Below the pieces are notes generated by a model that was given only the letters and a program-made list of their open reading frames with translations, was not told the origin of the DNA and made no database searches. Source: a virus. Taken from it: a stretch of DNA of 22,350 nucleotides. The DNA lies in IMG/VR virus record IMGVR_UViG_3300048032_000904, positions 1 through 22,350 of that record. The stretch is one strand, 5' to 3'. The translations under genes were made by a program, and so were the position numbers. Shown here piece after piece: positions 1 through 22,350 of the stretch (positions are counted from its first letter, which is position 1; each line of letters opens with the position of its first letter).

Positions 1-609
1 TTTGATCAAAAATACATTATCTTTGATACAGAAACAGAGGGCTTAAATCTCGTTTCCTCTAAACCTTGGCAGCTAGCTTGGATCGAAGCCACTGGCAAAA
101 AGATAACAAAAAAACAAAATCGTTTTCTTATGTGGGATGATTTGAATGTTTCGGAAGGAGCGGCCAAGATCACTGGATTCAATAAAAAAGACTACTTATC
201 TAAAGCTGAAGACCCTGCCGTAGTGCTTAAAGAGTTTATGGACTTGATAAGCCAAAACGACGTCATTGTTGTTGGACAGAATATTCTTGGTTATGATCTT
301 TATATGCTTGGCGTTATAGCAAGAAACTTGAATATCAAAATAGATTATTCTTTTGCCAAAAGATGCTTCGATACTAAAGCAATCGCAACAGCCATTGCCA
401 AAGATAATAAAAACCCAAGCAAACAAGATTTTCTATCTTGGCAGTTAAGATACCTAAATTACAGAGAAAGAGGACTCAAAACTTCTCAAAAGTTTTTATT
501 ACAACATTATGAGATTGACTTTGATGAAAAAAAGTTGCATGATGCTTTATACGATATTGAGAAGAACTTTGAAATATTCCAAAAACAATTATGGCAATTA
601 GAAATTTAA
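1..609 (+). CDS. DnaQ-like DEDDh 3'-5' exonuclease (5' end missing)
   Basis: The reading frame is open from the first base, so the gene starts before the window; 202 residues are visible. It should remove mismatched 3' nucleotides, as proofreading partner of the polymerase encoded next. Exo I is the DTETEGL motif (D9, E11 of the visible part), preceded by a hydrophobic strand. Exo II is GQNILGYD (D99). Exo III is HDALYD (H180, D185), with the H-x4-D spacing of the DEDDh subclass. All four acidic residues and the catalytic His are present, so it is probably active. Its end overlaps the polymerase start by 19 nt, which implies translational coupling and fits a separately encoded epsilon-type subunit. 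An in-frame ATG at 130 is not the start, because it would delete Exo I. The true start and any N-terminal extension cannot be seen. Confidence 0.9.
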   Translation, partial: FDQKYIIFDTETEGLNLVSSKPWQLAWIEATGKKITKKQNRFLMWDDLNVSEGAAKITGFNKKDYLSKAEDPAVVLKEFMDLISQNDVIVVGQNILGYDLYMLGVIARNLNIKIDYSFAKRCFDTKAIATAIAKDNKNPSKQDFLSWQLRYLNYRERGLKTSQKFLLQHYEIDFDEKKLHDALYDIEKNFEIFQKQLWQLEI

Positions 610-3167
610 AACCACTAGAGAGGCCAATGCCGCCAGGCGTTCGTTTACCAGAAATTGATGTAGAACTGCGAGTATACCATCAACTTGACCTAGACCCTCA
701 ATCTTCTAATTATGACCTTCTGAGGGCATTGTGTCTTCGTGGGGTAGAACAGAGAGGCATTGATAAACTCGACAATAAACAAGAATATTACGATCGAGTA
801 AAGATGGAGCTTTCTGTCCTACAAGAGCTTGGCTTTGTCGATTATATTCTACTCAATTGGGATGTTTTAAATTTTTGTCACCAAAATTTGATACCAACTG
901 GCCCAGGTCGAGGATCTGCCGCTGGTTCATTGGTATTGTATTTGTTAAAAGTGACAAATGTCGATCCAATTAAATATGATCTTTTCTTTGAGCGATTTGT
1001 ATCAAAGAGCCGTGCGAAGAAAACAGTTGTTGATGGTATCACATATCTTGACGGTTCGCTTCTTGCTGACGTTGACAACGATATTTCTTATGATCGCCGC
1101 CAAGAGGTTATTCAATATATTGAGAAAAAACACAAGGGTAGAACCTGTAAGATTCTTACACTCAATACTTTAAGTAGTAAATTATGCGTAAAGGAATGCG
1201 GTAAAATAGTCGGAGAGATGTCTGAAGATGAAGTAAATCAGATTAGCTCACTTATCCCTAAACAGTTTGGCAAGGTAGCTAAATTAGATCAAGCCGTTGC
1301 AGAGAGTGACAAGTTCAAAGAGTTTGCTGACAAAAACGCAAAAATATTCAAAATTGCAAAAAAACTAGAAGGGTTAAACAAAAATACAGGAGTTCACCCA
1401 TCTGGTATTGCTATTAGTTTCTACGATATTGCAGAAATTATGCCGATGCAAAAAACAAATGACGGGGATTTAATATCTACCTACGACATGAATGACGTTG
1501 CATCTTTGACGGTCAAGTTTGATATTCTTGGCCTTAGAACCCTTTCCGTAGTAAATGACACCTGCAAACAATTGGGCATAAATATTGAAGACATAGATGT
1601 TGGACTCGAAGAAATATACGAAAACTTCAAATCTATTGAAGCACCCAAAGGCTTGTTCCAGATTGAAGCGGATACAAACTTTAAAGTCTGTAAAAAAATC
1701 GCTCCTAAAAATCTTGAAGAGCTATCTGCCGTTGTTGCTATTGCTCGTCCTGGCGCACTTGATTATTTGGATGTTTACTCAGAATACGCAAGGACTTCTA
1801 GATTCCAATCAGTCAATGAATTCTTTGATGATGTCCTGTCTTATACTGGCGGTATTCCTTTATACCAAGAGCAATTGATGAAGATGGCCGTTAAGGTTGG
1901 TTTTACTCTTGATGAGTCGGAACAGCTTCGTAGAATCGTGGGTAAGAAAAAAGTAGATCAAATGCCAGCTTGGAAAGCTAAGATTGAGCAAAAAATTGCT
2001 CAAAATAATTTAGACAAAGAAGTCGGAGAGGTTCTTTGGAAAGTTGCAGAAGACTCGGCAAATTACTCTTTTAATAAGTCTCACTCAATTAGTTATGCGA
2101 TTCTTGCCGCTATCACGACTTACTTAAAATTTAAGCACCCAAAAGAGTTTTTTCTTTCACTGCTTAAAATGACTAAACATGAGCCAGATTCTCATGCGGA
2201 AATAGCATTAATCAACCAGGAACTTTGCTTATTTAACATGAAGCTTCTTCCGCCAGATTTATCAAAGTCTGATATTAACTTTGATATTGAAGGTCGCAAC
2301 ATTCGTTTTGGAGTGAATAGCATTAAAGGCGTATCGGAAAAAACCTTAGAAAGCTTGGTAGATTTTAGAAAAGCCCAAGAAGGTAATCAGAATAAATACG
2401 ATATATTTACTACCGCAAAGCAGTGTAGCCTCAACATTGGCGTTCTGTCTGGACTAGTACAAGGAGGTATGATGGATTCTTTTTGTTCATCTCAGAAAAA
2501 AATACCAAATCGCTGTCGATTAGTTTTAGAGGCTCAAGCCTTCAATATTTTAACCGATAGAGAAAAGCGAAATGTAATACAGCTAGGCGATAAATTTAAT
2601 TATGATGTTTTGGAAACTATACACTCAATAGTTAAAGACTCCCTAGTGGCAGATGATGGTAAACCTATTATGAAACCATCTCGTTTTGAAACATTTAAAA
2701 AGAAGTACGCTTCTTACAAAACAATCTACGACAAAAACAAAGATCATCTAAAGTTTGCAAATTGGTTCTTTGAGCGCAAATACTTGGGTTACAGTCATTC
2801 AACTGAAATTAAAGACGTATTTGAAAACTGCGGAGATATGTATAACAGCTTAACACTGAAATCAGTTCCAAACAATGATCGAGTCAAATTCGTGGGTGTT
2901 GTTACAGATTGTATATCTCGCACAAGTGCAGCTGGAAATAAATACATGAGGGTTGAAATCCAAGATGATTTTGGTAAAATAAATTTTATGCTTATGAATA
3001 ATAGACGTGCTGCTACTTTAGACAATTATTTAAACAGCGGTGGCAAAAAACCCAAAGAAGAGCAAATCGTTTTTATTTACGGCAGCAAAGGCGATGACGT
3101 TATTTTCGGAGAGAAAATTACTATTCTAGACGAAAAAATCTACACAAAATTATCAGAAATAAAATAA
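591..3167 (+). CDS. DNA polymerase III alpha subunit, PHP-less (DnaE type)
   Basis: This is a C-family replicative DNA polymerase of 858 residues. GPGRGSAAGSL (104-114) is the conserved palm motif. D160, D162 and D164 match the catalytic DxDxD of E. coli DnaE (D401/D403), and D311 in KFDILGLRTL matches D555. NTGVHPSG (265-272), ARPGALD and SFNKSHSISYA are further family signatures. The last ~100 residues (759-858) form an OB fold (VKFVGVVTD...). Bacterial DnaE is about 1160 residues; here the ~270-residue N-terminal PHP domain is absent and there is little after the OB fold, so the tau-binding C-terminal domain is also missing. About 15 extra residues lie just before the catalytic Asp triad. 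The start at 591 overlaps the exonuclease gene; the stop shares a base with the next start (TAATG). I saw no obvious beta-clamp motif. Confidence 0.95.
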   Translation: MAIRNLKPLERPMPPGVRLPEIDVELRVYHQLDLDPQSSNYDLLRALCLRGVEQRGIDKLDNKQEYYDRVKMELSVLQELGFVDYILLNWDVLNFCHQNLIPTGPGRGSAAGSLVLYLLKVTNVDPIKYDLFFERFVSKSRAKKTVVDGITYLDGSLLADVDNDISYDRRQEVIQYIEKKHKGRTCKILTLNTLSSKLCVKECGKIVGEMSEDEVNQISSLIPKQFGKVAKLDQAVAESDKFKEFADKNAKIFKIAKKLEGLNKNTGVHPSGIAISFYDIAEIMPMQKTNDGDLISTYDMNDVASLTVKFDILGLRTLSVVNDTCKQLGINIEDIDVGLEEIYENFKSIEAPKGLFQIEADTNFKVCKKIAPKNLEELSAVVAIARPGALDYLDVYSEYARTSRFQSVNEFFDDVLSYTGGIPLYQEQLMKMAVKVGFTLDESEQLRRIVGKKKVDQMPAWKAKIEQKIAQNNLDKEVGEVLWKVAEDSANYSFNKSHSISYAILAAITTYLKFKHPKEFFLSLLKMTKHEPDSHAEIALINQELCLFNMKLLPPDLSKSDINFDIEGRNIRFGVNSIKGVSEKTLESLVDFRKAQEGNQNKYDIFTTAKQCSLNIGVLSGLVQGGMMDSFCSSQKKIPNRCRLVLEAQAFNILTDREKRNVIQLGDKFNYDVLETIHSIVKDSLVADDGKPIMKPSRFETFKKKYASYKTIYDKNKDHLKFANWFFERKYLGYSHSTEIKDVFENCGDMYNSLTLKSVPNNDRVKFVGVVTDCISRTSAAGNKYMRVEIQDDFGKINFMLMNNRRAATLDNYLNSGGKKPKEEQIVFIYGSKGDDVIFGEKITILDEKIYTKLSEIK

Positions 3168-10539: not shown

Positions 10540-10985
10540 AAAACGGCATATATAAAATAGAGTCCATCGAAGACTTTGTTGAAAGCACAAAAATAATGTA
10601 CTGCAAAATGCAAGAATGCAGTCATTATGGCTTCCCAATAAATAGATCTTCGGTGGTCTCTTATTTTTCCAACCCACAAAGATTTAAAGATTGCTTTTGT
10701 TTTGAGTACTACACTGATAATCAACTAGTTAGTTTTATCTGGTGGATTAAAGCTTACGACGCCAGAGTAAACAAAAAAATTATACAAGAATATGCATGGA
10801 TATCTGATTCTGATAAAAAAGGCTGTGGAATCAAATTATTTAAAAAGAGTTTAGAATATATAAAAAATATATATAAATTTGATGTAATCTTAACAGGCAA
10901 TAGCGAAAAACACCCCAAATTAGAAAAATTCTATAAAAAAAACGGCTTCAAAGTAGAGAGTAGTATTTTTTACAAATCAAATTAA
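10512..10985 (+). CDS. GNAT-like N-acetyltransferase
   Basis: This protein has 157 residues. The layout fits a GNAT: an N-terminal helix with CKMQECSHY, a central strand pair (FEYYTDNQLVSFIWWIKA), then EYAWISDSDKKGCGIKLFKKSLEYIK, where CGIKLF corresponds to the acetyl-CoA-binding R/QxxGxG/A region, and a closing FYKKNGFKVESS typical of the C-terminal GNAT strand. The first Gly of the motif is replaced, so cofactor binding is plausible but not certain. The substrate is unknown; similar genes sit next to structural genes in many phages, where they may modify virion or host proteins. It overlaps the upstream gene by 28 nt and the opposite-strand tail gene by 4 nt. A second candidate of this type lies at the other end of the tail cassette. 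Confidence 0.6.
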   Translation: MSQTFEAAVKNGIYKIESIEDFVESTKIMYCKMQECSHYGFPINRSSVVSYFSNPQRFKDCFCFEYYTDNQLVSFIWWIKAYDARVNKKIIQEYAWISDSDKKGCGIKLFKKSLEYIKNIYKFDVILTGNSEKHPKLEKFYKKNGFKVESSIFYKSN

Positions 10986-11875
10986 GTTTCAGATACAATA
11001 AAAGCCTGTCTTTGCCCGTTTGCGTCTAACAAGGCATCAATTGAAAATTCTGCCAAGTCGTTTCCACTTGGAATTGTAATAGTTCCAGCACTCACTGGGA
11101 AACTTGTAGAACTGCTCTCTAGCACGGCCCCGCCAATTGCGGAAATAACAACAGCTTCCGAGTTTGTTCTAATTCTAAACGGAGCCGAGAAGTCTAAAGG
11201 AATGTTATTGGTTAAAATTATTTCAGTGCCTGTAAAAATGTCAGTAACGCCAGCATTAGTAAAAAATCTTAAATCATTTGCATTAGATCTATCAATAAGC
11301 ACTTCATCTTCCGTGATTGAAGCAAAAGAATCAAAACCATTAAACATTATTCCACTTACGGAATCTGAAGGTTCTCCAAAAGTCAAATAATCTAACGGAA
11401 CAACTTTATAGAATATATTATCTACTCTGTTTTCTATGTCTGTATTGAAAACATTGAAAGTTAAAAACGAATCATCTTTATCTACATTAACGATGCCGCC
11501 CTTGAGAAAATTTGTCAATCCAACTGTGTCTGGCTCAAAATCAACATAAGATCCAGTATAAACATCAATTTTTTTAATATTTTCTTTAGCGAGTCCTGAA
11601 AATCCATTTATGTCACCAGAAAAGAAACACCTTAATTCAATAAGGTCTGTAATCACTTCTATATCAGACATCAATTGTAATTCTGATCCAGTTGGCTCAA
11701 AAACTATATTTTGCCCTCTAAATTCCAGGCCAGTAATAGAAAACTGAGGAAACTCCACAAAGAAGGAGCCAGACCCACTCAAAAAGTCTGATTCTTGATT
11801 ATTTTGCACAAAGCATTCAAGTTCATATCCAGACGATGCTGGATGAAGACCTACCACTAATTCGTTAAACCTCAT
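10982..11875 (-). CDS. Uncharacterised tail-associated protein downstream of J
   Basis: This protein has 297 residues and is last in the tail-tip operon. I recognise no family. The sequence is rich in Ser, Gly, Asp and Asn with alternating hydrophobic residues, suggesting a beta-rich virion protein. It has no signal peptide or membrane segment and no Cys cluster. The last ~100 residues (AFIVSET end; FRIRTNSEAVVIS...) read as short beta strands of an Ig-like or fibre-type domain. Its start overlaps the J stop by 4 nt (ATGA), so it is translationally coupled. In lambda-like phages the gene after J often encodes a further fibre or an assembly factor; that is the likely role here. Its stop codon overlaps the end of the convergent GNAT gene. 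Confidence 0.65.
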   Translation of the reverse strand: MRFNELVVGLHPASSGYELECFVQNNQESDFLSGSGSFFVEFPQFSITGLEFRGQNIVFEPTGSELQLMSDIEVITDLIELRCFFSGDINGFSGLAKENIKKIDVYTGSYVDFEPDTVGLTNFLKGGIVNVDKDDSFLTFNVFNTDIENRVDNIFYKVVPLDYLTFGEPSDSVSGIMFNGFDSFASITEDEVLIDRSNANDLRFFTNAGVTDIFTGTEIILTNNIPLDFSAPFRIRTNSEAVVISAIGGAVLESSSTSFPVSAGTITIPSGNDLAEFSIDALLDANGQRQAFIVSET

Positions 11876-14800: not shown

Positions 14801-17475
14801 CCAGTTAAATTTTCAAATTGATTGCTCTTGAATGCGGGTTCTACTAAAATAGCTGCTGGCCCTTCTTCGTAATCGCCCGATCCATTTGGATTGTAATATG
14901 CGACATTTCCACTAGTCCCCACTACTGTGCCAAAGTTTTTGCTGAAATTTCTCATTTCGTCATCAACTCTTATAATGTCCCCAGGCTCCACTAATAAAGC
15001 CTCTAATCCAGCGCCAAAAGACACGGTCTCCGTAGTATACAAAGATTCGAAGAGTATATATTTAGCTAAACGATGGGCTTGCCCCCTAGAAGTGACGCCA
15101 ATACCATCTAATTGTTTAAAATTCAAACCAACCTGCTTAATAGCTTCAGTATCTTCGACGTACTCCGTAGCTGATGTGAAATTTTTAGATTTATCCAAAA
15201 ACGAAACTTCTACAGCAGAAAGTTTTGTATTTCTATCTACATCAGCATAAGCAAAAGCCCCTCCTTTTACATTTAAATTATTAAAAATTAAATGGGGTGC
15301 AAATTCTAATTCTGATGGAGGCGCTCCTGGCGCAGACTTTCCTTGTTTAAAGTACGGCTTATCAACCCTCACATTGACAAAAGAATTACTGAAATAAGCC
15401 ATAGCTCTAAAAGTTCGAGCTATATCTTGTATAGCTTCAAAAGCGCTATTCTGATCTTTGATCATTATATTGCAACTAAATCTAGGTTCTAAACCTCCAA
15501 ACCCATCACTCAAACCCACAAATTCTCCATTATCGTTGACTGCATCACAATATCTACCTATTTCATATAATGACCATTTATCTACAACGCTAACATCTCT
15601 TAAATAAGATCCTATTCCGTATCTGGTATTTATCAACAAATCATAATAAATCCAAGCGGGGTTATCTGTCCAACCTAATTTAAATGTTCCATCCCAATTC
15701 CTATTAGGCGATCTTTCTATACCCCTTAAATTTATTATAAAAAGCCCTATAATATTTGCAATAAGACCAGGTTCAGGTTCGCCAGAAACCCAGTAAGTGT
15801 ATCCTGGGGTAGCGACAGCCGCCAAAGCTAAACCAGCACTACTTTCTGGCGTTATGTCCATACCTAGAGTAGCTATAGTCACACCATCATTTTTTAAAGG
15901 TTGAGCGTCAACTGCTGCGCTGCCCACATCGCCATCACTTAATGCAAATATATATTTTTTTTTAGTTGTGTCTAGTATAAGAGAGTTTGTTATTAATTGT
16001 AAGCCAGAGCTCATATTTGTGCCCCCATCAGCTGTAAGGCTATTTACCGACGTCACCATAGCAGATAAACTGGTGCCGTAATTGGCGACTATGGCAGAGC
16101 TACTATTATATTCCACAATAGCTATTGAATCTACTGGCATTCCCTCTAATACTAAAAAATTTAACGCATCAATGATTGCTGTTTTTGCCCAAGCCAATCT
16201 ATTACCGCTCATCGAGCCAGAAGTATCTATTAAAAATATAACCTCAACATCATCTATCGAAACCCCATCGCCCGCATTGTTAAAAACCAAATCTCCATAT
16301 ATAACTCTTCCAGCAGAAGACCCATCATCAGAAAACCTCCTATCGAATAAACGATCATCTACTGGATGATAGTTGCTTGGGATTAAAACTTTTTTACCTT
16401 TTAGTTTAAAGGTTCTACTGGGTACTTGAGGAAAATATTTTGAATCAATAGATGTCCCGACATAAGCCGAATTGGGGTAAAGGTACGTTTCTGCATTTAT
16501 TTCGGAAACAGTCCCAACGCCTATCTCTCTTTTTACTATACTAGAGCTAGTTTCTGCTTCAATCTTTCTAATTCTAACAAAATTATTTATATCTGTATCG
16601 GATAAATTAGGAAGAGTTATATTTTCTAAAGTAAAAGTATACGGCGCTGTTATAATCCCAGTTATAGAGATTCTGCCATTTGCATTCCCTAGCGTTACTC
16701 CTTTACCCGCTCTAGTGGTAAAAGATGCGAAAGATACCTCTTCCTCCTCACCAAGATCATTGATTTTACCCACCGTTACTTCAATACTAACTGTGATGGG
16801 CAAATTCGTCCCAAGTCTACTCTTTCCTCCTGAGCTTTCGTATTTATCGGCAAAACTTTTTGTGTCGAACAAACCATCAATCTGCAATCCGATATTTAAT
16901 AAATTAACATTCTTATCGTAATTTTCATAATAAAAAGGGCTTTCTAATACTTCTCTGGGTATATAATTTTGCCAATTAACAAAATCCCTATCACCTCTGG
17001 TATCAAGACTACCACTGCCATTTCTAGCGCCATTAATATTTATCCAAGGACCCTTAATAGGTTTGCCATACTTTTGTAATTTTTGAGGTGTAGCGAGTAT
17101 CTCTGATCTAGTTTGAAATTCTGAACCATCTCTAAAAACACAATTATATTTTGATACAGTTGGCTCATTATTGCTCTCCCTTAAAGGTATATTGTCGAAA
17201 TATATAGCCTTATCTATGCCCCCTTTAGAACTTCCGACAGTATTGTCTTTGCTAGAGAAATTTTTAATAACTTGGCCTGGGTCTAATATTACCCCTTCCT
17301 TATCTGTTAACCCAGCAATTGGTCCTTCGCACAATAAATCTAAAGCTTCGTAAATCTGAAAACCGACCTTCCCGAATGCGGAAGATGGAGGCATCAAATA
17401 AGAAGGTTTCTCCCCTTTTGCTCCAGCTATAGTTAGCGCTTTTTTCCGTTGTAGGATTTTCTTATAGTAATTCAT
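11872..17475 (-). CDS. J-like tail tip attachment protein with inserted vWA domain
   Basis: At 1867 residues this is the central tail-tip and receptor-binding protein; lambda J has about 1130. The J core is clear: an N-terminal assembly region (AFGKVGFQIYEALDLLCEGP), LKGKKVLIPSNYHP (358-371), WDGTFKLGWTDNPAWIYYD (594-612), then RYGIGSYL, VDKWSLYEIGRYCD and EPRFSCNI (663-670). Between those blocks sits a von Willebrand A domain (409-580). Later parts include IGVTSRGQAHRLAKYIL and EPGDIIRVDDE, a fibronectin-like region starting PNPPSNL, two H-type-lectin-like repeats (1301-1455) and a LamG-like C terminus (1562-1855). It shares one base with the I-like gene stop (TAATG). The J assignment is secure; the accessory domains are read from motifs. 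Receptor binding is the family role. Confidence 0.9.
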   Translation of the reverse strand: MNYYKKILQRKKALTIAGAKGEKPSYLMPPSSAFGKVGFQIYEALDLLCEGPIAGLTDKEGVILDPGQVIKNFSSKDNTVGSSKGGIDKAIYFDNIPLRESNNEPTVSKYNCVFRDGSEFQTRSEILATPQKLQKYGKPIKGPWININGARNGSGSLDTRGDRDFVNWQNYIPREVLESPFYYENYDKNVNLLNIGLQIDGLFDTKSFADKYESSGGKSRLGTNLPITVSIEVTVGKINDLGEEEEVSFASFTTRAGKGVTLGNANGRISITGIITAPYTFTLENITLPNLSDTDINNFVRIRKIEAETSSSIVKREIGVGTVSEINAETYLYPNSAYVGTSIDSKYFPQVPSRTFKLKGKKVLIPSNYHPVDDRLFDRRFSDDGSSAGRVIYGDLVFNNAGDGVSIDDVEVIFLIDTSGSMSGNRLAWAKTAIIDALNFLVLEGMPVDSIAIVEYNSSSAIVANYGTSLSAMVTSVNSLTADGGTNMSSGLQLITNSLILDTTKKKYIFALSDGDVGSAAVDAQPLKNDGVTIATLGMDITPESSAGLALAAVATPGYTYWVSGEPEPGLIANIIGLFIINLRGIERSPNRNWDGTFKLGWTDNPAWIYYDLLINTRYGIGSYLRDVSVVDKWSLYEIGRYCDAVNDNGEFVGLSDGFGGLEPRFSCNIMIKDQNSAFEAIQDIARTFRAMAYFSNSFVNVRVDKPYFKQGKSAPGAPPSELEFAPHLIFNNLNVKGGAFAYADVDRNTKLSAVEVSFLDKSKNFTSATEYVEDTEAIKQVGLNFKQLDGIGVTSRGQAHRLAKYILFESLYTTETVSFGAGLEALLVEPGDIIRVDDEMRNFSKNFGTVVGTSGNVAYYNPNGSGDYEEGPAAILVEPAFKSNQFENLTGGVLNIFNPVGTSGTDQFDQFNGKIDQNLYKELNNPQAISLKINSGGSGFSYQHTDSGVYIFIDEQVTGTAVGGPGTASSQWFSNEDANDVFGSSYSVDISGREPKYYRILAIKEDVDMGYNITATIHHTGKFEFVEENTTFDINPDSFQPDLITTELIKPNPPSNLATGAFSQNLDASLNLPLNITDPSTRVGNKYVVYIEEPNTNVIVAEFGKSFTSVTNVILSGAAKIDQIGSYEINVFSESSTATTKIRSSLAATISFTTQSSDFNFNSATNSFLEYKDISINTAYESSFNNLENEGTGQVSFIENNELINATFNLSFEDIFGNEDAEVIQSISGQVINLKNYQGDLIETGFKVLGREEFFSVTNEELNIAFGYTGEGKYRIPPSLDFEVGSFLLSGSGDLTTDQFISFGQPFSESPAVFTSQLITGGFENDYDKIGRVISTSGGFYVTGSSSSISNHVYIATKTGNFKFNNSQDRIEVATATKDNNSGYNFVGFSEDFDSIPKVFIQSQQPQVSEENYFSETCITGVSVSGFYFNSFESDLSPASGTGIFAYLATNQNIFNVADSSDLPIRTLNYSCTGESNFNFNTDSILEQVNGTNNVGYRFNNDQYAVLYQRYGDDGLFENSFFAVQSTGDGKNKVSEHILQTGSGIGASGSIINADFPDHVYSLFNTNGDVNQLVIDGANDANVTGSFTSAQINNGELLTFASGGDVRVPKIYDHFGDKHAIQDITGIQAKIVTGGSMVSLDGKPALDFVRTAGGQDNAVYYRVSDSGHITGVEGLEIFATVSFDTVNQTLNASSSFRADYVVSENQNSAVNDIGFGAGKVAGTPYQYLYEEHGSANTFGGFDFPGDITKDGWGITGNEISFDTKYVLNGFVGFDDSATSGFRGMTFDGSYVSGYTVSGQKNNIIGTIGSDQTYDNSFDGKFQELLIYKNVQPDSREKIRKNALYRSNEGLTNPNFNFIQIGVTGIL
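11908..12792 (-). other. Concanavalin A/LamG-like C-terminal module of the J-like protein
   Basis: Residues about 1562-1855 contain DGKPALDF, a long run of beta strands, and the closing FDGKFQELLIYKNVQPDSREKI helix, as in LamG/concanavalin-like modules at phage fibre ends. The preceding IYDHFGDKHAIQD is like the WYDQSGNG element of arabinofuranosidase-B-type modules. It probably binds surface sugars. Confidence 0.6.
13111..13575 (-). other. Two H-type-lectin-like repeats within the J-like protein
   Basis: Residues about 1301-1455 contain two copies of a pattern: a strand with F-x-x-x-F-x-x-x-P-x-V, then an Asn-rich loop, then S-G-F and V/F-x-x-Y-x-A. The first reads FGQPFSESPAVF...VYIAT, the second FSEDFDSIPKVF...FAYLAT. 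This resembles the H-type lectin fold, so sugar binding is possible. The similarity is by eye and could reflect another beta sandwich. Confidence 0.45.
15736..16251 (-). other. vWA domain within the J-like protein
   Basis: These are residues 409-580 of the J-like protein. The MIDAS metal site is complete: DTSGS (D417, S419, S421), T486 in GGTNMSSGL and D514 in LSDGD. vWA domains bind protein or other ligands through a divalent metal. The insertion is bounded by J-family blocks on both sides, so this is a domain within one gene and not a separate gene. Confidence 0.85.
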
Positions 17476-18074
17476 TATCCAAGATCCTCACTAACAACGT
17501 TTGTGGCAATTATATTTGATCCGACCCGCATCTCTCCATAAACCAAAGGAATAGGGAAGCCTTGAATAGCATTATTTTGTAAATTTGTAAAAATATAACT
17601 AGAAGTATCTATCTTTGTCTCTACTGTCTGGGCTGATGTTTTTGGTAGTTCTACGGGGAAAAGGAGAGTCATAATACCTTGTATTAACAAACCCACAGCA
17701 AGATTGAGTAAAAAACCTCCAATAGAAGACAAAGATACTGCTGCTACAACGCCTCCTATCGCTCCAGCTATAGCGGCTACCGCTCCAATTGCAGCGGCAA
17801 ACAAACCAGCACCAGCGATTTCTGGGACTAAATGAATTTCATCAGGAGCTTCTTCTTTTGAATATTCCTCAATAGAGTCCCATTTTTGATTTGGTTTCTT
17901 CAAATTAACCATGTTGTAATTCACTCCCTTGTGAAACAAAGAAAGAATATGTTCTTTGAATCCTGGGTTGTTCGCATTTAAAGCCTTCACCACATCTATT
18001 AGTTTTTCTAATTTGAATGTATGATTTGCCCCAAACACCTTTCCGAGTTCTCCGTGAATAATTACGTTAGTCAT
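17475..18074 (-). CDS. Lambda gpI-like tail assembly protein
   Basis: This protein has 199 residues and matches the gpI family of tail assembly proteins. The N-terminal ubiquitin-like part has HGELGKVFG and a stretch ending EIHLVPEIAGA (79-89). A long Ala/Gly-rich hydrophobic segment follows (87-140, GAVAAIAGAIGGVVAA...), and the C terminus has the family signature GFPIPLVYGEMRVGSNIIA (172-190). In lambda this protein assists tail tip assembly. Here the hydrophobic segment is long enough for one or two membrane-spanning helices, though in the family it may simply be buried in the tail tip. A good ribosome binding site, AAGGGAG, lies about 7 nt before the ATG. It overlaps the K-like gene by 8 nt and shares one base with the J-like start. 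Confidence 0.9.
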   Translation of the reverse strand: MTNVIIHGELGKVFGANHTFKLEKLIDVVKALNANNPGFKEHILSLFHKGVNYNMVNLKKPNQKWDSIEEYSKEEAPDEIHLVPEIAGAGLFAAAIGAVAAIAGAIGGVVAAVSLSSIGGFLLNLAVGLLIQGIMTLLFPVELPKTSAQTVETKIDTSSYIFTNLQNNAIQGFPIPLVYGEMRVGSNIIATNVVSEDLG

Positions 18075-18459
18075 TTATTGCTCCCTTCAGCATATTTACA
18101 CCACTTTCAGGACCTTTAAATCCAGGCATGTCGAATAAATTGAATTTTTTAGTTTCCAAAGAATAAATTAAAAACGGATAAAGACAATTCTTTGAATTTT
18201 GTATATCGTACTCCGAGGGGCGCTCTTCTGAATCTACATGAGTGTGAAATATAGCGACCAACTCATTACTTAGAGATCTCTCTAGAAAAGATATGGGGTC
18301 AACTTTAAAATAATCATCCTTATGAGAATGATTAATCATTTTTTCAAAAATCAGACCGCCATCTTTGTAAATAATAAAACCGCAAACTTCTCTCAGAGGA
18401 GAGCTTTCTGAAAACTCTATCATTTCATTTATAAAGTTATTGTTTTGGTGGGTATTCAT
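18067..18459 (-). CDS. JAB/MPN metalloprotease-type tail protein (gpK-like, protease domain only)
   Basis: This protein has 130 residues. The JAMM zinc site is complete: E24 in LREVCGF, then HTHVDSEERPSEYD giving H72, H74, S82 and D85 in the exact HxHx7Sx2D spacing. It corresponds to the first domain of lambda K, which is followed there by an NlpC/P60 cell-wall peptidase domain; that second domain is missing here. In lambda-like phages K acts in tail tip assembly; the JAB part may process tail proteins. The ATG at 18459 is chosen because AGGAA lies 4 nt upstream, whereas the longer version from 18480 starts with TTG. It overlaps the L-like gene end by about 23 nt and the I-like gene by 8 nt. 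Confidence 0.85.
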   Translation of the reverse strand: MNTHQNNNFINEMIEFSESSPLREVCGFIIYKDGGLIFEKMINHSHKDDYFKVDPISFLERSLSNELVAIFHTHVDSEERPSEYDIQNSKNCLYPFLIYSLETKKFNLFDMPGFKGPESGVNMLKGAIND

Positions 18460-19408
18460 GTGTTCCTGGGAATCCCCCAAATCTTAAATTATTAGTATAT
18501 CTAAATTTACAGTCAGATATTTTTTTTGAACATTCATCTTTTTGCCATTTTGCAGAAATTGATGGGTTGTTTTCATTTCCAGATACTCCATCAGCGACAC
18601 AAACGTAAAATGTTTTTAACCTTTCGGCTGGCGCGGACAAGTCCGTCTCTATATCGCTTCGGAGTATGAAATTTTCTATTTGCAGAAAAACGTAGTCCCC
18701 TTTATTATATGTAATTGAACTCGACCATAGACCTTTATTAGTTGCTGGAGTCACAACAACCCCATCAGAATCAGTAAAATCTTGCGAATTGCCTGTTTTT
18801 TTGGGTTCTCCAGCATACCTGCATCCATGACCTCTATATATCCAAGTACAGTACCTAGCATAAACATTTCTATTAGGCAAGTAAACATTATCTAACTCAA
18901 AAACCGAAGAAAGCTCCAGTTCTACCAATTCTTTTGTTTCGCTTACTCTCCTATTTACATAAAAAGTTTGATCTGGCAAAAAAGAAGTTTCTGAAGCCGA
19001 TGTTATTTGTTCGACGACGTCAAAAAATGGATTTTGTCCACCTTCAAAATTTGAATCATCTAAAAATTTCGCAAATGTTCTTTTTCTTACTATTTTTGCT
19101 CCTATAAGATTATTATGAACTTTTAAATATTTTGAAATAGCATAATCCTTATTTGAAAGCATTACCCTTGGCCTAGGCAAAGTGTTGTCGCCAGATGATT
19201 CGAATCCAGAAATTTCCATAGGATAAGAGAGGTAAGATTGCCCTTGCCAGATAACTTGAATATTTATACCCTTTTGTATTGGAGTCAACGCGAGGACGCT
19301 GTTTTGGTCTTCTGGCCAATCATAGTAGATTAGATAAAATTCTAATAATTGACTAGGTTCGAGAGATGTAGCCTCTCTTGCTGTATTTTTATCTATGCCT
19401 TGACCCAT
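18437..19408 (-). CDS. Lambda gpL-like minor tail protein with Fe-S cysteines
   Basis: This protein has 323 residues. The C-terminal region holds C187 and C196 in YCTWIYRGHGCRYAG, and C293 and C300 in DECSKKISDCKFRYTNN, followed by FGGFPG; in lambda gpL four cysteines with the same 9- and 7-residue separations bind a [4Fe-4S] cluster. Between the pairs lie ~96 residues instead of about 22. The insert (225-290) has WSSSITYNKGDYVFL...FYVCVA...NNPSISAKWQ, the layout of CBM5/12-type carbohydrate-binding modules. The N-terminal part (1-180) is a beta-rich tail domain. It begins the minus-strand tail operon; its partner genes K, I and J follow in the lambda order. There is no Shine-Dalgarno before the ATG. 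C270 is extra and outside the cluster pattern. Confidence 0.85.
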   Translation of the reverse strand: MGQGIDKNTAREATSLEPSQLLEFYLIYYDWPEDQNSVLALTPIQKGINIQVIWQGQSYLSYPMEISGFESSGDNTLPRPRVMLSNKDYAISKYLKVHNNLIGAKIVRKRTFAKFLDDSNFEGGQNPFFDVVEQITSASETSFLPDQTFYVNRRVSETKELVELELSSVFELDNVYLPNRNVYARYCTWIYRGHGCRYAGEPKKTGNSQDFTDSDGVVVTPATNKGLWSSSITYNKGDYVFLQIENFILRSDIETDLSAPAERLKTFYVCVADGVSGNENNPSISAKWQKDECSKKISDCKFRYTNNLRFGGFPGTHEYPPKQ

Positions 19409-19999: not shown

Positions 20000-20650
20000 T
20001 TGACTAAAGTAAAAAAGTTTACCTTTGGAGCGAATAAGAAGGTTAATTTTATTCGTATCCCCAAAAATGCAAGTACGTCTCTTTATAATTACTTTGGCGT
20101 AACAAATACAGTTAGAGACGCCTACCTAAACGCAGATAACAGAATATACAAAAATACATTTGCTCCATCTCACTGTCGATTAAATTTTGTAATCGAAGAA
20201 TTTGGCGAAAGAATTTTAAACCTACCCACATTGGCGGTTACAAGAAATCCATACGATAGAATGGTTTCAATGTTTTTCTTTGCTCAAAAAATCAAAGCAT
20301 ACAAAATATATGATGTTAATATAGAAAATTTTTTACAATTCTGTGAAACCTTCGAATCTTTATGTTCAGATAGTTATTTTTTTCATGGGTGGACTCAGAA
20401 GTCTTTTATAAACATTGGGAGCAAAACCATGGTAAACGATTTAATTAGTTTCGAAAATTTAGAAGTGGAATTCATGAAATTTTTATATAAGCACGATTTA
20501 AAAAATTTTTATGAAAAATGTGGGTCAAGATTAAAAAAACAAAACAGCACGACGCATAAACAATATAAGCATTATTTTTGTTCGAAATCTCAGAAAATTG
20601 TTAAAAATCTTTGGGAAGAAGATATAGATTATTTTGAATACATTTTCTAA
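20000..20650 (+). CDS. PAPS-dependent sulfotransferase (Sulfotransfer_2-like)
   Basis: This protein has 216 residues. The 5'-phosphosulfate-binding motif is IRIPKNASTSLYNYF (18-32), and the 3'-phosphate-binding motif is TRNPYDRMVSMFFF (81-94), both in the right order and near the expected distance. A His in APSHCR (H58) is a candidate catalytic residue. It would move a sulfate from PAPS to a sugar or other acceptor; the acceptor is unknown, but its location next to fibre genes suggests sulfation of surface glycans or virion components. Only TTG at 20000 is available as a conventional start, because the frame has a stop at 19988-19990 and later Met codons fall inside the motifs. There is no Shine-Dalgarno. 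No PAPS synthesis gene is in the window, so the donor would come from the host. Confidence 0.85.
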   Translation: MTKVKKFTFGANKKVNFIRIPKNASTSLYNYFGVTNTVRDAYLNADNRIYKNTFAPSHCRLNFVIEEFGERILNLPTLAVTRNPYDRMVSMFFFAQKIKAYKIYDVNIENFLQFCETFESLCSDSYFFHGWTQKSFINIGSKTMVNDLISFENLEVEFMKFLYKHDLKNFYEKCGSRLKKQNSTTHKQYKHYFCSKSQKIVKNLWEEDIDYFEYIF

Positions 20651-20830
20651 TATTTTTGTAGCACAACAGAAATATTAGATAACTTAGACTTAGCGAGTAG
20701 AATAATACAACCAGTTGATGCTGACTTTAGATCTTTGGATTTTCTCGCATTCTTTGCTGATGTACCCACCTTCTCCAAGAAAATTTATTCAAATCAACAC
20801 CAGGGCAAAATGTTTAGTGTAATAAATACT
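20651..20830 (+). other. 180-nt gap between sulfotransferase and fibre gene 1
   Basis: This is the longest stretch without a called gene. It has no hairpin terminator. The frame shared with the sulfotransferase and fibre gene 1 stays open for 60 codons from the sulfotransferase stop to the fibre ATG, and includes a TTG at 20735. The translation resembles nothing I know. It may be the remnant of a gene or simply a spacer. Confidence 0.4.
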
Positions 20831-21058
20831 ATGGCAGACAAAAAAATATCACAACTCGTTGAACTCACTTCAGCTAACGCAGCAACTGACGTTTTGCCAG
20901 TTGTTGATACTAGCGTTGGCGAAACTAAGAAAATAGCCTTGGCTAATTTGCCGATGAGCGATGCTGCTCTTGCGCAATCTTACCCTTTCACAACGGACAT
21001 TCAATCTGGCACAGAGCAGACACGGAATCTTACGACTATTGATGACACATCTGGGTAT
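20818..21058 (+). repeat. Fibre gene 5' repeat, copy 1
   Basis: This segment, from TGTAATAAATACTATGG to CTGGGTAT, matches 21762-22002 with no insertion or deletion over 241 bases and only scattered substitutions. It spans the promoter-like element, the start codon and ~75 codons. It marks a duplication of the upstream signal plus N-terminal anchor of a fibre gene. Confidence 0.9.
20821..20828 (+). promoter_or_regulatory. AATAAATA promoter-like element before fibre gene 1
   Basis: AATAAATA matches TATAAATA at 7 of 8 bases and ends 2 nt before the ATG at 20831. The surrounding TGTAATAAATACTATGG is identical to that before fibre gene 2, which shows it is conserved. No Shine-Dalgarno is present. 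Confidence 0.45.
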
Positions 21059-21766
21059 GACAACAACAACATCACTTCTATTTACATTGGAAGTAATGTG
21101 ACTTCGATTGGAAATTATTCGTTTTACTACGCCCAAAACCTGACTAGCGTCAGTATTCCAGACAGCGTCACATCGATTGGAAATAGTACGTTTTATAGCT
21201 GTTCAAACCTGACTAGCGTCAGTATTCCAGACAGCGTCACATCGATTGGAAGTTATGCGTTTTACTTCTGTCCCTCAACTAGCCTTAATATTCCAGACAG
21301 TGTCACATCGATTGGTAATGCTGCCTTCAGCTCCTCTGGCATAACTAGCGCCAGTATTCCAGACAGCGTCACATCGATTGAAAATTATGTGTTTTACTAT
21401 GCTTCAAACCTTACCAGTATAACTATTCCTGATAGCGTGACTTCGATTGGGGATAGTGCGTTTAACTCCTGCTCAAGTCTTACCAGTATAACTATTCCTA
21501 ATAGCGTGACTTCGATTGGGAATTATGCTTTCACGTACTGCACAAGTCTTACCAGCGCAACTATTGGTAATGGTGTGACTACGATTGGGAGTTATGCGTT
21601 CGACTCAGCTTCTAGCCTAGCTACAGTTAACTGCCTAGCTACAACTGCTCCAACTTTAGGTTCTGATGTATTTAACAGTATTCCAGCCACAGAAATTCAC
21701 GTTCCAGTGGGGGCAACAGGCTACGGAACTACATATGGAGGTTTGACAGTCCGCGCAGACTTGTAA
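20831..21766 (+). CDS. Tail fibre protein 1: N-terminal anchor plus BspA-type leucine-rich repeats
   Basis: This protein has 311 residues. The first ~70 (MADKKISQL...LPVVDTSVGETKKI) are of the phage fibre N-terminal type that attaches to the virion. From about 85 to 265 come 23-residue repeats of the form LTSVSIPDSVTSIGxxAFxxCSS, BspA-type LRRs that form a curved beta surface for binding. The last ~45 residues (APTLGSDVF...VPVGATGYGTTYGG) are the usual C-terminal cap of such repeats. I place the start at ATG 20831, not at the in-frame TTG 20735, because the paralogous gene at 21775 begins with the same MADKKISQL and the same upstream DNA. GC content is higher than in the neighbouring genes, so the repeats may have come from another source. 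Host-receptor binding is inferred. Confidence 0.85.
   Translation: MADKKISQLVELTSANAATDVLPVVDTSVGETKKIALANLPMSDAALAQSYPFTTDIQSGTEQTRNLTTIDDTSGYDNNNITSIYIGSNVTSIGNYSFYYAQNLTSVSIPDSVTSIGNSTFYSCSNLTSVSIPDSVTSIGSYAFYFCPSTSLNIPDSVTSIGNAAFSSSGITSASIPDSVTSIENYVFYYASNLTSITIPDSVTSIGDSAFNSCSSLTSITIPNSVTSIGNYAFTYCTSLTSATIGNGVTTIGSYAFDSASSLATVNCLATTAPTLGSDVFNSIPATEIHVPVGATGYGTTYGGLTVRADL
21130..21600 (+). repeat. Tandem 69-nt repeats of fibre gene 1
   Basis: Units of 69 nt (23 codons) recur head to tail. The stretch AACCTGACTAGCGTCAG with the following GACAGCGTCACATCGATTGG occurs twice exactly 69 nt apart; other units are diverged. They are coding repeats of the BspA-type leucine-rich domain. Confidence 0.85.
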
Positions 21767-22002
21767 TAAATACTATGGCAGACAAAAAAATATCACAACT
21801 TACAGAACTTACTTCAGCTAACGCAGCAACTGACTTCTTGCCAGTTGTTGATACTAGCGTTGGCGAAACTAAGAAAATCTCATTAGATAATTTGCCAATG
21901 AGTGATGCTGCTATAGAGCAGTCTTACCCATACACAACGGACTTTATATCTGGCACAAAGCGGACACGTGACCTTACGACTATTGATAACACATCTGGGT
22001 AT
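21762..22002 (+). repeat. Fibre gene 5' repeat, copy 2
   Basis: This is the second copy of 20818-21058, shifted by exactly 944 nt with no indels. Both contain a promoter-like element, an ATG and the N-terminal anchor of a fibre gene. Confidence 0.9.
21765..21772 (+). promoter_or_regulatory. AATAAATA promoter-like element before fibre gene 2
   Basis: It has the same sequence and same position relative to the ATG at 21775 as at 20821. It overlaps the stop codon of fibre gene 1, so the intergenic space is almost nil. Confidence 0.4.
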
Positions 22003-22350
22003 CAATATCAAGGAAGTCTAACCTCCGTATATGTTGGAAGCAATGTGACTTCAATTGGTGATGGGTCATTTGAAAACAGCGGCTTGACCAGCATCACAAT
22101 ATCCGACACTGTTACCAGCATCGGGGATGATGCATTTATTGACTGCATTAACCTAACGAGCATTATTATTCCTGACAATGTAACATCGATTGGGAGTGCT
22201 TCATTCCGCTATTGCTCAAGTCTTACCAGTGTTTCTCTTCCCTATGGAATTACTTCACTTAGTAATAGTATTTTCAAGAGTTGCTCAAGTCTTACCAGCA
22301 TAACTATTCCAGATAGTGTGACCTCGATTGGGAATGGTGCATTTCAGCTC
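21775..22350 (+). CDS. Tail fibre protein 2 (3' end missing): same anchor, divergent BspA-type repeats
   Basis: 192 codons are visible and the gene continues past the edge. The start MADKKISQL...LPVVDTSVGETKKI is nearly the same as in fibre gene 1. After it come repeats such as LTSVYVGSNVTSIGDGSFENS, LTSITISDTVTSIGDDAF and LTSIIIPDNVTSIGSASF, again 23 residues each, but more diverged from each other than in fibre gene 1. The gene starts 8 nt after the previous stop. It is probably a paralogue arising by tandem duplication, with the anchor kept and the recognition part changed. The C-terminal cap cannot be seen. Confidence 0.85.
   Translation, partial: MADKKISQLTELTSANAATDFLPVVDTSVGETKKISLDNLPMSDAAIEQSYPYTTDFISGTKRTRDLTTIDNTSGYQYQGSLTSVYVGSNVTSIGDGSFENSGLTSITISDTVTSIGDDAFIDCINLTSIIIPDNVTSIGSASFRYCSSLTSVSLPYGITSLSNSIFKSCSSLTSITIPDSVTSIGNGAFQL

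Follow-up and report, generated by a model that had tools for sequence, protein, structure and literature searches.

Accessory binding domains on the hubs of siphophage tails are established for folds other than the von Willebrand A (vWA) domain (PMC7291167, PMC10276861), and they were hitherto known mainly as carbohydrate binders of Gram-positive phages. In the evolved Dit/Tal proteins of Gram-positive siphophages, carbohydrate-binding modules, most of them in Dit, occupy a loop of a conserved baseplate hub protein (PMC7291167), and the marine siphophage-type tail tips of roseophage R4C and of the RcGTA hub/megatron carry extra hub domains reported as carbohydrate- or oligosaccharide-binding, with vWA not mentioned there (PMC10276861). 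VWA domains are known from another phage-tail-derived adhesion organ, the eCIS tail fibres (PMC12923769), and one Bordetella phage record names a vWA tail protein. Among openly licensed PMC papers, we found no description of a vWA domain in phage tail or J proteins, nor of the J loop considered below as an insertion hotspot.

The locus studied here lies in a stretch of 22,350 nucleotides from an uncultured siphophage, analysed as a whole and called the window. Its hub protein shares with lambda gpJ the family, the gene order L-K-I-J and both blocks flanking the insert, which align, but where lambda has a short loop (residues ~252-259) it carries ~200 residues of vWA. As in evolved Dit/Tal, the insert occupies a hub loop and is absent from close relatives (contigs L002 and L003, where the site is empty); in contrast to them, it is a protein-binding-type vWA in J and not a carbohydrate-binding module in Dit or Tal, and at most it works like those modules without being a member of their group. 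It also differs from the eCIS case, since the domain is inserted in the hub and not in a fibre. The closest counterpart is gp78 of Bordetella phage MW2 (Vojvodinavirus, KY000218), in which a vWA domain with a metal-dependent adhesion site (MIDAS) precedes the Phage-tail_3 core and is inserted directly before NPA[HW]I, although that hub belongs to family PHROG_1101 and the one in the window to PHROG_31.

A vWA domain inserted in a J-type tail hub

On sequence grounds, the 1867-residue protein is a lambda J-type (TipJ) tail hub. It matches Phage-tail_3 in Pfam (E = 6.2e-16), PHROG_31 'central tail fiber J' (E = 3.1e-104) and, by phmmer against the PDB, lambda gpJ (E = 1.5e-46), and the L-, K- (JAB) and I-like genes lie directly upstream on the same strand (Table 1). 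The J homology is split by the vWA domain, the phmmer alignment resuming at residues 593-845, which correspond to gpJ 259-490. The 297-residue protein gave no Pfam or PHROG match, and its gene is also found in contig L141. Inside the Phage_tail_L region of the gpL-like protein there are ~80 extra residues, for which a carbohydrate-binding fold suggested by eye received no support from Pfam.

Table 1. Features of the hub gene, its insert and the neighbouring genes (window positions)
Feature	Position	Strand	Basis
gpL-like minor tail protein	18437..19408	-	Phage_tail_L, E 4.9e-43
gpK-like protein, JAB domain	18067..18480	-	Prok-JAB, E 2.5e-9
gpI-like tail assembly protein	17475..18074	-	PHROG_32, E 1.4e-35
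J-type tail-tip hub gene, 1867 aa	11872..17475	-	ORF, Phage-tail_3, PHROG_31, lambda gpJ
N-terminal J block, residues 269-372, ending IPSNYHPV	16360..16671	-	lambda gpJ 153-252, phmmer
Whole inserted segment, residues ~396-592	15700..16290	-	Absent in relatives L002, L003
vWA domain, residues ~405-585	15721..16263	-	Pfam VWA_2 and VWA, AlphaFold2, Foldseek
MIDAS motif 1, DTSGS 417-421	16213..16227	-	Translation; identical in L141
MIDAS Thr486 (GGTN)	16018..16020	-	Translation; conserved in L141
MIDAS Asp514 (LSDGD)	15934..15936	-	Translation; conserved in L141
J hub core, residues 593-860, starting NWDGTFKLGWTDNPAW	14896..15699	-	lambda gpJ 259-490; L141
Uncharacterised protein, 297 aa, overlapping the J 3' end	10982..11875	-	ORF

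An initial annotation had proposed a MIDAS-intact vWA domain cleanly inserted in the hub at 15736-16251 (minus strand, residues 409-580), and this is borne out by the Pfam matches, the split gpJ alignment and the relatives with an empty site. Direct translation agrees with the coordinates and with the DTSGS, T486 and D514 assigned there, all 5 MIDAS residues being present (D417, S419, S421, T486 and D514). The location was right, but the comparison with L002 and L003 makes the insert proper slightly wider than proposed. Both Pfam models scored above their curated cut-offs, VWA_2 over residues 412-515 (E = 6.3e-13, 49.7 bits against 27) and VWA over residues 412-539 (E = 4.3e-11, 43.8 bits against 23.8), and phmmer against the PDB reached the pilus-tip vWA of Mfa5 at E = 2.5e-7.

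The suggested structure prediction, run with AlphaFold2 on J residues 230-870, returned the expected vWA fold with the complete alternating strand/helix order of a Rossmann-type domain, while the hub part was of low confidence (pTM 0.37) because the alignment was thin. Blocks of 10 residues had pLDDT values of 78-96 over J 410-539 (model residues 181-310) and 63-68 across most of the remaining vWA domain. Foldseek against the PDB gave 284 matches at E<=1e-3, the best 50 of which are essentially all vWA-fold chains, with E values down to 1.2e-9 and TM-scores by target up to 0.78; they include mussel PTMP1 and the adhesive vWAs of CMG2, the Mfa5 pilus tip, TRAP and the integrin I domains. vWA is the adhesive fold of integrins. 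Since the alignment given to the predictor included vWA rows, the AlphaFold2 fold is a consistency check rather than independent proof, a part that falls to the Pfam profile matches and not to the structure model. Pfam, AlphaFold2 and Foldseek are concordant on the vWA fold of the insert.

Distribution of the vWA insert and of its insertion site

Two other contigs share this architecture, which rules out a chimeric assembly: L083, a separate contig of another IMG record that is 99.8% identical to the window in nucleotides, and L141, a 73-kb contig that shares 17 kb of collinear sequence with the window (78% nucleotide identity). Between L141 and the window, the vWA domain is 70% and the hub core 94.8% identical, and dN/dS, as single pairwise estimates, is 0.33 for the domain and 0.029 for the core, a tenfold difference. 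The MIDAS motifs are unchanged in L141 (DTSGSMSG, GGTNM and LSDGDVGSAA). These comparisons indicate that the domain has been retained and constrained, yet evolves faster than its hub surroundings.

A gapped pattern scan of IMG/VR found only L083, the window's twin, although the pattern needed a GAT-A start and fixed spacings and can miss others; 2 profile-guided scans returned, within J proteins of this type, only this twin and L141 with a vWA domain; and among 50,697 phage records searched by tblastn, only Bordetella phages matched the insert, while J itself matched 1,519 records. Together, the pattern, profile-guided and tblastn scans rule out vWA as a general J feature.

The insertion loop, which corresponds to lambda gpJ ~252-259 and lies just upstream of 'WTDNPAW', was surveyed in the 80 top-ranking J relatives from IMG/VR by measuring the residues between IPSNYxP and WDGTF. 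Most of them have 7-52 residues there, and the site is empty in L002 and L003, the 2 best J matches of the IMG/VR scan (identity of 63% across the hub segment); 17 measured ORFs hold ~230-470 residues in the loop. Ten of these 17 share an insert starting 'LDVIFMVDQNMN', the model of which is weak (pLDDT 52), with the listed PDB matches almost all of vWA fold, among them the integrin CD11b I domain and vWF A3 (E ~2e-3, probability up to 0.99); one member of the type also matches Pfam VWA at E = 0.02. Its MIDAS is degenerate, nearly all of 86 members having DQN[ML]x instead of DxSxS, and no Asp follows strand 4. A separate scan of IMG/VR confirmed 113 stretches with this vWA-like insert, in J proteins of aquatic siphophages, and no match to it was found in the phage record collection. 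Degenerate (DQNMN) inserts were noted in L030, L040, L045, L047, L048, L053-L055, L057, L060 and L254-L333.

The other 7 long-loop ORFs contain a different, probably beta-rich insert of ~230-260 residues (L004, L005, L006, L044, L056, L061 and L065; ~470 in L056 and L065). Its reading as LamG/ConA was made by eye, and Pfam and PDB sequence searches gave no match. The first J fragment of L006 apparently has yet another, propeller-like insert, and J-type genes occur as tandem pairs on one contig in L005, L006, L015, L044, L056, L061 and L065, often with differing inserts.

The 3 kinds of insert enter the loop at different residues, the window's vWA after IYGD, the degenerate type before [KR]IYYGDW and the beta type between two IY-containing segments, which favours independent insertions. 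As far as these sequences go, the gpJ ~252-259 loop is an insertion hotspot in J proteins, and this recurrent use of one point, which goes beyond the initial annotation, would make it a natural site for domain swaps.

The initial annotation knew of no described J protein with this domain, but vWA-bearing hubs are not unique to the window. The hub tail protein of Bordetella phage MW2 is annotated 'von Willebrand factor type A', and its gp78 matches VWA_2 (E = 1.8e-10) as well as Phage-tail_3. Of 298 genomes sampled from the Rhodobacterales family to which Actibacterium sp. XHP0104 belongs, 15 matched a vWA-hub query; the hubs of 12 contain a MIDAS vWA, inserted at the same alignment point, and those of the other 3 are close to them (core 72-77% identical) but have an empty site. 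A bare junction, YSAKAAIGQ-DMNPAHIIREC, is likewise seen in PaMx25, a relative of MW2 gp78. In a joint alignment, DMNPAHI stands opposite the window's TDNPAWI, so that the insertion point is homologous within ~15 residues. The hub of Sphingomonas phage Lucius (L139:1444-3996) has a different insert of ~120 residues at the homologous site.

DxSxSM is present in each of the 25 vWA-bearing hub ORFs detected, among them the window's copies. Bordetella phages and contig L143 have a second vWA domain in the gpL-like protein preceding the hub, and hence 2 vWA-bearing tail-tip proteins per phage (L082:3733-5133 with DISGSM and L143:3404-5095 with DTSGSM). These gpL-like vWAs fall in one clade with other hub vWAs, and the MW2 domain groups with the Rhodobacterales hub vWAs, apart from that of the window. 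The window/L141 pair lies outside the tail-protein vWA clade in the tree, in which a single clade is not rejected (p-AU 0.37).

Proposed role of the vWA domain at the tail tip

Ligand binding appears the most plausible role for the insert. We propose, with a probability of about one half, that the domain is an exchangeable, metal-dependent accessory adhesion module on the J hub that binds a host ligand. This reading is preferred since the insert can be exchanged, is found in some relatives and missing from others, evolves faster and, in its canonical form, keeps its MIDAS. In lambda, the lower hub is made up of the HDII, HDII-insertion and HDIII domains, all of which rotate outward when ejection takes place (PMC11101478, PMC10721106). 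The vWA domain would occupy a permissive loop located at, or close to, the boundary between HDII-insertion and HDII and, placed by analogy with lambda between gpJ 252 and 259, would probably hang outside the lower hub; lambda J being a trimer, 3 copies would decorate the tail tip. Through a divalent metal, the intact MIDAS would engage a ligand on the host surface, either a protein or an acidic group, and the domain would keep the tip attached to the cell during binding of the main receptor by the C-terminal J region. Exposure, copy number, metal occupancy and host ligand are predictions for this domain, and a MIDAS vWA adhesin further predicts a divalent-cation step in adsorption.

Adhesion is supported by the non-homologous inserts at this site in other J proteins and by its being empty in most of them, the pattern expected of exchangeable binding modules. 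It is further supported by the MIDAS vWA at the homologous point of Bordetella and Rhodobacterales hubs, before an NPAHI aligned to NPAW, whose close relatives have precisely empty versions. The vWA fold with all 5 MIDAS residues, the unchanged motifs of L141, the DxSxSM shared by the detected vWA hubs, the adhesive vWAs among the best structural matches and the precedent of accessory domains of other folds on siphophage hubs speak for adhesion as well. The use of one recurrent loop by 2 distant hub families suggests a class of metal-dependent adhesins at the tail tips of Gram-negative phages, with abundant uncultured aquatic phages among its suggested users. Against adhesion, the far commoner vWA-like insert at this site has a largely lost MIDAS (DQNMN, no final Asp), which rules out metal-dependent adhesion as the general function at this loop.

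The same variety of unrelated inserts and the many empty sites would also be seen if the loop merely tolerated inserts and the domain were a passive decoration with little function, and the tenfold dN/dS relative to the core, which could be mere relaxation and in that respect counts against adhesion, points the same way. We consider this unlikely, as the dN/dS of the domain (0.33) is clearly below 1, its MIDAS motifs have stayed unchanged across 30% vWA divergence and a MIDAS vWA recurs in unrelated hub lineages.

The main rival to an adhesion module, tentative but better placed than the other alternatives, is docking inside the virion, in which the MIDAS would attach another tail protein to the hub, be it a side fibre, the gpL-like protein or an unlinked fibre. 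Docking between proteins is a general use of the vWA fold, and in many bacterial complexes the subunits are assembled by way of vWA domains. The related vWAs in 2 adjacent tail-tip proteins of Bordetella phages and L143 would fit such a contact between virion proteins, and to that extent they count against adhesion. Against docking, no gene for a partner follows the distribution of the insert (L003, which has no vWA domain, also possesses the gene overlapping the end of J and several others), the window's gpL-like protein has no vWA match in Pfam, and the insert evolves faster than the remainder of J.

In integrin I domains, occupancy of the MIDAS is linked to the movement of a helix, and the vWA domain might similarly be a switch in which a MIDAS ligand or force shifts the last helix and is relayed through both junctions to open the tail. 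Both of its ends are anchored in the hub close to HDII, which rotates together with its insertions as the lambda tail opens (PMC11101478). A dedicated switch is nevertheless quite unlikely: most J proteins work without an insert here and other folds occur at the same site, so none is needed, and each of the two linkers flanking the domain differs in length by 5 residues between L141 and the window, which speaks against tight coupling. The broadest version, that Gram-negative phage hubs have one ancient plug-in point with repeated gain of metal-dependent, integrin-type vWA domains, at which engagement of a host protein by the MIDAS is mechanically tied to the opening of the hub and acts as an integrin-like trigger of DNA ejection, is in our view very improbable.

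Other genes in the window

Outside the tail module, positions 20735-21766 and 21775-22350 encode tandem BspA-type LRR_5 proteins (E = 5e-60 and 6e-34), possibly virion adhesins, which have a common N-terminal MADKKISQLxELTSANAATD segment. A Sulfotransferase-family protein (20000-20650; Sulfotransfer_2, E = 2.7e-6) lies between the tail and LRR genes. At the other end, positions 1-3167 encode a DNA polymerase III alpha-type protein of 858 residues that starts at its NTPase domain and is preceded by a separate exonuclease gene.
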